From Candidatus Nealsonbacteria bacterium (GTDB taxonomy: Bacteria > Patescibacteriota > Minisyncoccia > Minisyncoccales > CSSED10-335), in the NCBI GenBank assembly GCA_019923605.1, contig JAHXGM010000006.1:1-33286 (forward strand): DNA of 33,286 nt, read 5' to 3'. Shown here in pieces: positions 24,941 through 26,905 of the stretch; positions within the stretch are counted from its first letter, which is position 1, and each line of letters starts with the position of its first letter. Both the position numbers and the translations under genes were made by a program. The notes under the pieces are model-generated. The model had not been told where the DNA came from, did no database searches, and was given only the letters and a program-made list of their open reading frames with translations.

Positions 24941-24970
24941 TTTACATTTAAACGCAATTACTGTTAAAAT
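24941..24970 (+). promoter_or_regulatory. Candidate promoter for smpB unit
   Basis: TTTACA (24941-24946, 5/6) and TAAAAT (24965-24970, 5/6) are 18 nt apart, and TG one base before the -10 gives an extended -10 element. The -10 ends only 6 nt before the smpB ATG at 24977, so the predicted transcription start falls at or next to the start codon. No Shine-Dalgarno precedes the gene. Confidence 0.55.
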
Positions 24971-24976
24971 AGGATT

Positions 24977-25417
24977 ATGAGCGCACTAGCTGAAAATAAA
25001 AAAGCATATTTTGACTACGAGATCCTAGAAAAGATTGAGGCTGGGATTATTTTGAATGGACAAGAAGTGAAATCAATTAAACTAGGACGCATAAACTTAA
25101 AGGGCACTTATGTTGTACCTAAAGATAATGAAATTCACTTAATAGGCAGCCATATTCCACCCTATCAACCTAAAAATGTGACTGACTATGATCCAGACAG
25201 AAAAAGAAAACTTCTTTTCAAAAAAAAGGAGATGAATTATCTTATCGGAAAATCAAAGGAAAAAGGCTTGACTTTACTCCCATTGAAAGTATATACTAGG
25301 AAAGGCATAATAAAGGTTGAAGTCGGAATCGCTAGAGGAAAGAGAAAGGCAGATAAGCGAGAGAAGATCAAGAAAAGAGATATAGATCGCGATCTTCAAA
25401 GATCTTTAAAATCATAG
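24977..25417 (+). CDS. smpB: SsrA-binding protein SmpB
   Basis: SmpB binds the tRNA-like domain of tmRNA and delivers it to stalled ribosomes. The 146 residues show ALAENKKAYFDYEILEKIEAG, LNGQEVKSIKLGRINLKGTYV and HIPPYQPKNV, all family blocks, with a basic C-terminal tail (KADKREKIKKRDIDRDLQRS) that becomes helical in the mRNA channel. The stop lies 4 nt before the tmRNA gene, so partner protein and RNA are adjacent and probably co-transcribed. Confidence 0.97.
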   Translation: MSALAENKKAYFDYEILEKIEAGIILNGQEVKSIKLGRINLKGTYVVPKDNEIHLIGSHIPPYQPKNVTDYDPDRKRKLLFKKKEMNYLIGKSKEKGLTLLPLKVYTRKGIIKVEVGIARGKRKADKREKIKKRDIDRDLQRSLKS

Positions 25418-25421
25418 TCAT

Positions 25422-25781
25422 GGGGATGCTACGGATTCGACAGAGATGTAGCGTAACCGAGGCAAGCCGAGGATTCTCGACAGCTCGTTAAACTTCGAGA
25501 AAACCAATAAGTGCAAACTTATTCAATAGAAAACCTGCGCTAGCATACGCATAGCGTCATCTGCCCCTCTGATTCTCGATAAGAACGGGTGGGTGTCATA
25601 AAAATCGAGATAGGTATTTTTTCTTTCGATCTTAAGAGAAAATTCCAAAAACTACTAAGATCGGGTGTAAAAAGGTTTTGACTTGATTTTTCACTTTCTA
25701 TACCTAAAACAAATCAGTCTAAGCTTGTAGAATCGTTTATGAAACATTCTTTGGACGCGGGTTCGACCCCCGCCATCTCCA
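25422..25781 (+). ncRNA. ssrA: Transfer-messenger RNA (tmRNA)
   Basis: The 5' end GGGGATGCTACGGATTCGAC and the 3' T-arm GGGTTCGACCCCCG with CATCTCC are diagnostic of tmRNA. The acceptor stem pairs GGGGATG (25422-25428) with CATCTCC (25774-25780), with one G-U pair, and A25781 is the discriminator. CCA is not encoded. The tag frame resumes at GCA 25513 and reads ANLFNRKPALAYA, ending in TAG at 25552-25554. The region between tag and T-arm holds several hairpins consistent with pseudoknots. A TAAAAT at 25407-25412, inside the end of smpB, could be an internal -10. No terminator separates it from infC. Confidence 0.96.
25513..25554 (+). other. tmRNA proteolysis-tag reading frame
   Basis: Thirteen codons from the resume GCA to TAG encode ANLFNRKPALAYA. 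The AAN-type start is usual. The C-terminus ALAYA differs from the common ALAA/LAA ending recognised by ClpX. Confidence 0.85.
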
Positions 25782-25805
25782 CATTAGTAAGTAATTAAAA
25801 GTAAT

Positions 25806-26321
25806 ATAAAAAAAGTACCGATCAATAATCAAATAAGAGCTTCCAAAGTTAGAGTCGTTGATAACGATGGTAAACAAATGGGAGTCTTTCCCCTTTTTGA
25901 GGCAGTAGATATAGCTCGCAAAAGAGGACTTGACCTAGTTCAGGTTACGGAAAAAGTCGATCCACCGGTTTGCAGGATCACTGATTACGGTAAATTTGTT
26001 TACTGGGAAAAAAAGAAAGAAAAGGAAAAGCATGTTAAAAGTGCAAGTAGTGAATTTAAGGGAATTAGATTAAAGTTCGGAATATCTTCACATGACATGG
26101 AGGTCAAAGCAAGGTCCGCAGTAAAATTTCTAAATAAAGGGAACAAAGTAAGGATAGAGTTACCATTGCGAGGTCGTCAAAAAAGCTTAGCCGACTTTGC
26201 AAAAGAAAAGATAACATCTTTTTTAGAAATATTAGAAAAAGAAGTTCCTTTCAAAGTAGAAAGAGAGCTTAAGCAAGAAGGTAGAGGCTTGATGTTAGTA
26301 ATCGCAAAAATTGATAAATAG
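25806..26321 (+). CDS. infC: Translation initiation factor IF-3
   Basis: IF-3 binds the 30S subunit and checks initiator tRNA and start codon. Blocks seen are INNQIRASKVRVVDNDGKQ, EAVDIARKRGLDLVQV, PPVCRITDYGKFVYW, the linker, and the C-terminal domain with GIRLKFGISSHDME and IELPLRGRQ. The first ATG (25878) would remove the conserved first 24 residues or so. Homology continues upstream in frame until a stop at 25788-25790 with no ATG, GTG or TTG. Possible starts are ATA 25806 (used here), ATT 25794 or ATC 25821. Rare starts discriminated against by IF-3 are known for E. coli infC (AUU) and allow self-repression. No Shine-Dalgarno is evident. Confidence 0.9.
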   Translation: MKKVPINNQIRASKVRVVDNDGKQMGVFPLFEAVDIARKRGLDLVQVTEKVDPPVCRITDYGKFVYWEKKKEKEKHVKSASSEFKGIRLKFGISSHDMEVKARSAVKFLNKGNKVRIELPLRGRQKSLADFAKEKITSFLEILEKEVPFKVERELKQEGRGLMLVIAKIDK

Positions 26322-26323
26322 TT

Positions 26324-26509
26324 ATGAAAAAAACAAGAAAATCAATAACAAAAAGGTTCAAAATTACCAAAAACGGAAAAGTTTTAAGAAGAGCTGTTGG
26401 AACCAATCATTATCTTTGCAAAAATGATGGAAAGCAAACAAGGCAAAACAAAAAGTGGATTGAGCTTCTAAAGGTAGATGCCAAGAAAATTAAAAGTTTG
26501 TTAAAATAA
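26324..26509 (+). CDS. rpmI: Ribosomal protein bL35
   Basis: The 61 residues are rich in Lys and Arg and follow the L35 pattern: KKTRKSITKRFKITKNGKV, then GTNHYLCKND with the usual K-rich end. It sits 2 nt after infC and 4 nt before rplT, the standard infC-rpmI-rplT order found across bacteria. L35 binds 23S rRNA in the large subunit. Confidence 0.95.
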   Translation: MKKTRKSITKRFKITKNGKVLRRAVGTNHYLCKNDGKQTRQNKKWIELLKVDAKKIKSLLK

Positions 26510-26513
26510 AAAT

Positions 26514-26861
26514 ATGGCTAGAGTCAAGAGGGGTAAATCAGCCCACAAAAAAAGAAAAAACATACTTCAGCACGTAAAAGGATTCCGCTGGGGAAGAAAG
26601 TCTAAATTTAAGCAAGCTAAAGAAGCTTTAGCTCATGCTTGGACATATGCATTCAGAGATAGGAAAGCAAAAAAGAGAGAGTTCAGAAAACTTTGGCAGA
26701 TAAGAATTGGATCGGCTTGCCAAAAAGAAGGAATGAGTTATAGTAGCTTTATCCACAAGCTAAAAAGTAAAAACATTGAATTAGACAGAAAAGTATTATC
26801 TCAACTAGCCGAAAGTAATCCAGATGTTTTTACCAAAATTGCCGAGGAAGTAAAAAAATAA
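26514..26861 (+). CDS. rplT: Ribosomal protein bL20
   Basis: L20 is an early assembly protein of the 50S subunit. The 115 residues show MARVKRGKSAHKKRKNILQ, GFRWGRKSKFKQAKEA (GYxGxR in most bacteria), YAFRDRKAKKREFRKLWQIRI, MSYSSFIHKLK and IELDRKVLSQLA. In several bacteria L20 represses its own operon by binding a leader; here there is almost no leader before infC, so that control is unlikely or acts elsewhere. Confidence 0.97.
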   Translation: MARVKRGKSAHKKRKNILQHVKGFRWGRKSKFKQAKEALAHAWTYAFRDRKAKKREFRKLWQIRIGSACQKEGMSYSSFIHKLKSKNIELDRKVLSQLAESNPDVFTKIAEEVKK

Positions 26862-26865
26862 TTTC

Positions 26866-26905
26866 AAAAAGAGGACCGCTTTTAAAAAGACGGTCCTTTT
26901 TGTTT
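26866..26905 (+). terminator. Intrinsic terminator after rplT
   Basis: AGGACCG (26872-26878) pairs with CGGTCCT (26891-26897), flanked by an A-run upstream and T5-G-T3 downstream. It begins 5 nt after the rplT stop and ends the smpB-ssrA-infC-rpmI-rplT unit. The A-run makes it potentially bidirectional, but no opposing gene reads into it. Confidence 0.88.

Follow-up and report, generated by a model that had tools for sequence, protein, structure and literature searches.

A probable near-cognate infC start codon behind smpB-ssrA in a Candidatus Nealsonbacteria genome, and avoidance of AUG at infC among its relatives

Results and discussion

Gene order and features of the infC locus

The window, by which we mean the whole stretch of 33,286 nucleotides analysed here (contig JAHXGM010000006.1 of a Candidatus Nealsonbacteria bacterium), belongs to a genome of 559,529 bases in 24 contigs, with completeness given as 100%. 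Its + strand carries smpB, the tmRNA gene ssrA, infC, rpmI and rplT in that order (Table 1); the arrangement infC-rpmI-rplT is thus present, with the rpmI match slightly under its cut-off. The smpB and tmRNA genes lie 4 nt apart. The tmRNA acceptor helix (GGGGAUG/CAUCUCC), from which the 3' end was deduced, is followed by the discriminator A at 25781 and no encoded CCA, and the infC leader beyond it stays single-stranded in the minimum-free-energy fold of 25782-25900. The infC protein carries both the IF3_N and the IF3_C domain and is the sole IF3_N match in the 560-kb genome, in which no second IF3 gene was found.

A consensus scan for promoter-like sites found 11, against 5.4 expected from shuffles. 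The site in front of smpB ends 6 nt 5' of the smpB ATG, so that a leaderless smpB mRNA is possible; TAAAAT-like boxes, picked out by eye, also stand immediately 5' of the ATG in several other genes of the window.

Table 1. Coordinates of features at the infC locus of the window.
Feature	Position	Strand	Basis
Promoter-like TTTACA-18-TAAAAT, with TG preceding the -10, 5' of smpB	24941..24970	+	Consensus scan; consensus match only
smpB	24977..25417	+	NCBIfam TIGR00086 and NF003843, above cut-off
tmRNA (ssrA), tag ANLFNRKPALAYA	25422..25782	+	Rfam RF00023, 158.9 bits (25422-25784); ARAGORN 25422-25782
infC leader, 24 nt, AU-rich, from tmRNA discriminator to inferred start; no SD	25782..25805	+	
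In-frame TAA closing the infC frame upstream	25788..25790	+	Sequence
ATT, alternative infC start, codon -9; position unmatched in most relatives	25794..25796	+	Sequence
ATA, likeliest infC start, codon -5 before INNQIRA	25806..25808	+	Start positions of relatives
infC (IF3), 171 codons + stop	25806..26321	+	IF3_N, IF3_C, TIGR00168
IF3_N domain	25821..26030	+	PF05198, 103.4 bits
Earliest in-frame ATG of infC; internal, unconserved	25878..25880	+	
rpmI (bL35), ATG start	26324..26509	+	TIGR00001, 50.4 bits, slightly below cut-off 51.2
rplT (bL20), ATG start	26514..26861	+	TIGR01032, above cut-off
Terminator-like AGGACCG...CGGTCCT, then T run	26872..26902	+	By eye; loop exceeds the limit of the scan, hence unlisted there

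The infC start in the window

According to the original prediction, infC offers no ATG, GTG or TTG after the upstream stop and ahead of its conserved N-terminus, and direct reading of the sequence bears this out. After the stop codon the frame runs GTA, ATT (25794), AAA, AGT, AAT, ATA (25806), AAA, AAA, GTA, CCG, ATC (25821), AAT, AAT, CAA, ATA (25833), and IF3_N begins at 25821 with the first ATG following only at 25878. The match to PF05198 starts there at profile position 1 (residues 11-80 of the translated frame). That to the NCBIfam infC model TIGR00168 scores 146 bits (cut-off 60) and spans residues 7-172; it enters the profile at position 3 and opens at the residue right after the ATA at 25806. 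Counted from this ATA, the '24 or so codons' of conserved sequence said to precede the first ATG are exactly 24. Automatic gene callers were further expected to shorten the protein; the one case at hand is the mechanical ORF list, whose ORF begins at 25878 (147 aa).

The infC start is therefore a near-cognate codon by all appearances, most likely AUA at 25806, with AUU at 25794 second; we infer which of the two from comparison, the ATA being favoured because of its position relative to the starts of relatives.

Start codons of infC in relatives

We collected infC from relatives and measured each start from the codon for the residue that opens the [IV]NNQIRA motif. For the order, 59 loci were fetched including the window and 57 were usable, L058 and L061 being left out because a contig end cuts infC; three rows (L031-L033) were dropped as the same genes as L006, L007 and L053, and one genome (G034) gave no IF3_N match. 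The sample from the rest of the class took 89 of 100 further genomes with a match, omitting the 11 weakest-scoring, and that from the rest of the phylum took 67 of 108 (27 new among the best 30, and 40 picked by hand down the list).

Within the order the start calls were TTG in 30 loci, ATT in eight, ATC in six, ATA, GTG and CTG in three each and ATG in two, with none called in two; near-cognate calls (ATT, ATC, ATA, CTG) thus make up 20 of 57. From the upstream stop to the motif, 13 of these infC loci have no canonical codon at all and 48 have no ATG. Outside the order (n=156) the calls were TTG 24, ATT 22, ATA 21, ATC 13, CTG 11, GTG 6 and ATG 5; the remaining 54 had no call within -4 to -9, many of them with longer N-terminal stretches before the motif. 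A canonical codon is missing from 55 of these infC loci: 30 of the 89 belonging to the rest of the class and 25 of the 67 from beyond it.

Where canonical starts are present in the order, they lie mostly at codon -6 or -5, and near-cognate codons occupy these two positions in 19 of the 22 loci with no canonical codon at -4 to -9 against 7 of the 35 with one (Fisher p=1.2e-6, with independence overstated, as the loci are related). A conservative binomial taking the highest background per position (6/26) gave p=1.4e-5, in which kinship again overstates independence. Judged by these sequences, near-cognate codons at the infC start position exceed chance.

The ribosomal protein genes of the same loci behave otherwise. 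In the order rplT begins with ATG in 15 of 15 cases and rpmI in 44 of 45, and a canonical start is lacking in none of them, compared with the 13 of 57 for infC. Over all loci, with the genes recognised by pattern, none of 37 rplT and none of 71 rpmI lack one; three of the 71 rpmI have no canonical codon within 9 codons, and all 71 have one between stop and motif. Across the phylum, infC repeatedly avoids AUG in loci whose rplT and rpmI begin with ATG.

In the family of the window a near-cognate codon is kept in four of five members, as ATA in the window and as ATT in L006, L007 and L053, all at -5, while the fifth (L011) has GTG at -8. The protein tree groups the window with the three ATT relatives (SH-aLRT 91, not starred), and the GTG relative adjoins (89); the tree is weak overall, with only 5 of 54 inner branches starred. 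On this weakly supported tree, the 55 labelled rows of the order require 13 or more switches between a near-cognate and a canonical start, and the persistent trait is therefore avoidance of AUG, not one codon. An alignment of upstream codons had been proposed as a way to see which rare codon is conserved: the avoidance of AUG does persist, but no single codon is kept. As to whether the rare start is ancient or re-evolved, its phylum-wide recurrence favours 'ancient' over a single re-invention, with the reservation that the codon itself turns over.

Start selection and the 16S rRNA tail

No SD-like motif was found before the infC start in any of 55 loci of the order, the window included, nor before 44 rpmI or 15 rplT of the order, and among 29 ORFs of the window listed by hand only two have one. 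We examined 16S loci from the order (30), the rest of the class (28) and outside the class (28), comprising L220 from the genome of the window (G000:C9:24703-26217), L221-L249 and L255-L310. The predicted 16S rRNA tail of this genome is GGATTATCTAATCT, in the place where GGATCACCTCCTTT is the usual predicted sequence outside the class. CCTCC survives in none of the 25 tails readable in the order, in 8 of the 22 from the rest of the class and in 19 of the 21 from beyond it, and SD-like motifs before infC track this anti-SD core (0/55, 2/59 and 15/43, respectively).

With no SD in the leader and no anti-SD core in the 16S tail, initiation at infC in the order has to select its start by means other than SD pairing. 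The core is absent from all 25 readable tails of the order and from 14 of the 22 read elsewhere in the class, a patchy loss or change wider than the order; a loss specific to the order was accordingly rejected, since only those 8 tails in the rest of the class keep CCTCC. A literature search, in the portions of the papers that it returned, gave no report of anti-SD loss in Parcubacteria or the candidate phyla radiation, and we claim no priority.

The tmRNA gene upstream of infC

By ARAGORN or Rfam, a tmRNA gene lies upstream of infC on the same strand in 53 of 57 loci of the order; one of the four in which none was seen (L046) begins too close to a contig end. Outside the order, at least 29 of the 156 loci, 23 of them from the class sample and 6 from beyond the class, have a tmRNA within 200 nt of the motif. 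This is a lower bound, since the only program used there was ARAGORN, which had overlooked many tmRNAs of the order. The CCA is encoded in 7 of the 53 tmRNAs of the order. From the discriminator to the inferred infC start the distance is 2 to 337 nt, with a median of 24, over the 51 loci of the order with a call; it is at most 12 nt in 12 of them and at most 25 nt in 28, and in the window it is 24 nt.

The consensus scan found no promoter-like site on the + strand of 25312-25806, which is compatible with co-transcription without proving it. At short gaps a separate infC promoter is unlikely, as its -10 box would fall inside the T arm and acceptor of the tmRNA, and for this reason infC is probably co-transcribed with smpB-ssrA. 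It would then probably be translated from the precursor, or from an mRNA whose 5' end is supplied by tmRNA maturation. Folding decided nothing here: the tmRNA with the leader gave z -1.91, in a best fold without the tmRNA acceptor helix, and 25782-25900 gave z -0.80.

A bolder possibility, which we put forward tentatively, is that smpB-ssrA-infC in the order forms one processing-coupled transcript, in which excision of the tmRNA would make the infC 5' end close to the weak start and ribosomes without an anti-SD would begin from that end. If true, synthesis of IF3 would hinge on how the tmRNA matures and would be sensitive to IF3 twice over, through the rare codon and through a near-leaderless mRNA, and the coupling would link the stringency of initiation with the capacity for ribosome rescue.

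Turning to the enzymes of 3' processing, no RNase Z was recognised in the genome of the window, the sole match to the RNase_Z model scoring 19.1 bits against a cut-off of 292.95. A tRNase Z as the enzyme freeing the infC mRNA thus found no support, that one ORF resembling, by eye, a ComEC-like metallo-hydrolase. Two other Lactamase_B_2 matches were named by eye as an RNase J-like ORF and another metallo-hydrolase, and a CCA-adding enzyme domain is present. The genome (loci L250-L254) combines an RNase J-like ORF and a CCA-adding domain with no recognisable RNase Z, although its tmRNA has no encoded CCA.

A separate observation concerns the other end of the tmRNA. With smpB located in relatives by profile search, its stop TGA was found at nucleotides 6-8 of the tmRNA (GGGGATGA or GGGGGTGA) in 15 of 50 loci of the order, the window not among them (L003, L009, L011, L012, L015, L020, L021, L022, L023, L025, L027, L030, L035, L050 and L052). 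In such loci, excision of the mature tmRNA would be expected to strip the smpB mRNA of its stop codon and so turn it into a substrate for trans-translation. In a literature search judged by titles and the first lines of abstracts, no paper on the tmRNA-infC junction or on infC starts in the candidate phyla radiation was found.

Feedback by IF3 and the alternatives

Near-cognate infC starts are already known, and the present case is a variant. IF3 is described as repressing non-canonical starts, with infC starting at ATT in Escherichia coli and ATC in Streptomyces and being autoregulated (PMC5472188); for Staphylococcus aureus, retapamulin ribosome profiling places the infC start at AUA, 'likely enabling auto-regulation' (PMC13009471); and high IF3 is reported to inhibit translation of leaderless mRNAs (PMC9031893).

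The E. coli gene resembles that of the window in being orthologous, in lacking AUG, GUG and UUG, in a third-base mismatch to the initiator tRNA and in leading on to rpmI-rplT. It differs in its ATT preceded by the SD GGAGG and in having thrS upstream (control record read here), whereas here there is no SD, no anti-SD core, smpB-ssrA upstream and a codon that is probably AUA; because of the GGAGG before its ATT, the E. coli device is not transferable unchanged. S. aureus infC shares the gene and the same inferred AUA codon, but an extended SD is predicted there, according to PMC13009471, and none is seen here. The likeness to Streptomyces infC (ATC) and sigR (GTC) lies in a non-canonical start, with IF3 control shown for sigR; the codons and the context there (PMC5472188) are other ones, and our case is a prediction from sequence. 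With leaderless mRNAs (PMC9031893) the order shares the lack of an SD and, at the shortest of the gaps given above, a start not far from what may be a processed 5' end; the window differs in its longer gap from the discriminator.

We consider it probable that the window has a near-cognate infC start at the head of infC-rpmI-rplT, behind smpB-ssrA, with negative feedback by IF3. The initiator tRNA would pair poorly with such a start and IF3 would reject it, restraining its own synthesis, so that the start would be used more when IF3 is scarce and less when it is abundant. Self-repression by IF3 at this start is the best reading, by analogy with E. coli, and in the order the loop would operate without SD pairing. 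It need not be uniform. TTG, a codon that IF3 permits according to PMC5472188, is the commonest call of the order and counts against feedback there, so that the loop may be weaker or missing in many relatives; the GTG start of L011 likewise speaks against a uniform loop, within the family itself.

An alternative that we regard as unlikely, but still take seriously, is that the weak infC start merely fixes a low and constant level of IF3, with no feedback. The order's mixture of TTG and near-cognate codons, with its many changes between the two kinds, is what loose selection for 'weak' would give. Against a constant level, IF3 is itself the factor that rejects such codons and a loop of this kind is described for E. 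coli infC in PMC5472188, and the neighbouring rplT and rpmI begin with ATG.

It is improbable that the start is instead AUU at 25794 (codon -9), which would add four residues and leave the mechanism otherwise unchanged. This codon is open in the infC frame, and ATT is both the E. coli infC codon and the most frequent near-cognate call in the order; the order's calls, however, cluster at -5/-6, only 2 of the 27 loci whose frame reaches back to -9 and that have a canonical start place a canonical codon there, and the three ATT relatives of the same family have theirs in the place of the window's ATA.

A lineage-wide relaxation of start codons by ribosomes without an anti-SD, under which infC would be unexceptional, fits the absence of CCTCC from every readable tail of the order, but it is very improbable and largely refuted by the ATG starts of rplT and rpmI in the same loci (two control genes only, across loci). 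It is opposed as well by the window itself, where ATG comes first in 28 of 29 other ORFs taken by hand from the mechanical list (the selection omitted some ORFs, including two with TTG first), and by the infC loci outside the class, which often lack a canonical start where CCTCC is mostly kept. This last pattern (25 of 67 such infC loci) suggests that the rare infC start and the loss of the anti-SD are separable traits.

Translation from the ATG at 25878, the earliest ATG and the choice of the ORF finder, was rejected as scarcely credible: the truncated IF3 would lose the first 19 of 70 IF3_N positions, a stretch well conserved in the order (motif position 5 is I in all 57 loci, position 11 is R in 54), while its Met is not (M in 2 of 57, L in 33).

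Implications

Avoidance of AUG at infC spans a deep, genome-reduced branch of the bacteria, including an order in which no readable 16S tail retains the anti-SD core. Gene callers restricted to ATG, GTG and TTG likely shorten or misplace IF3 in many such genomes. If a near-cognate infC start under negative feedback by IF3 is the right reading, the order provides a natural test of whether IF3 start-codon feedback works without SD pairing.
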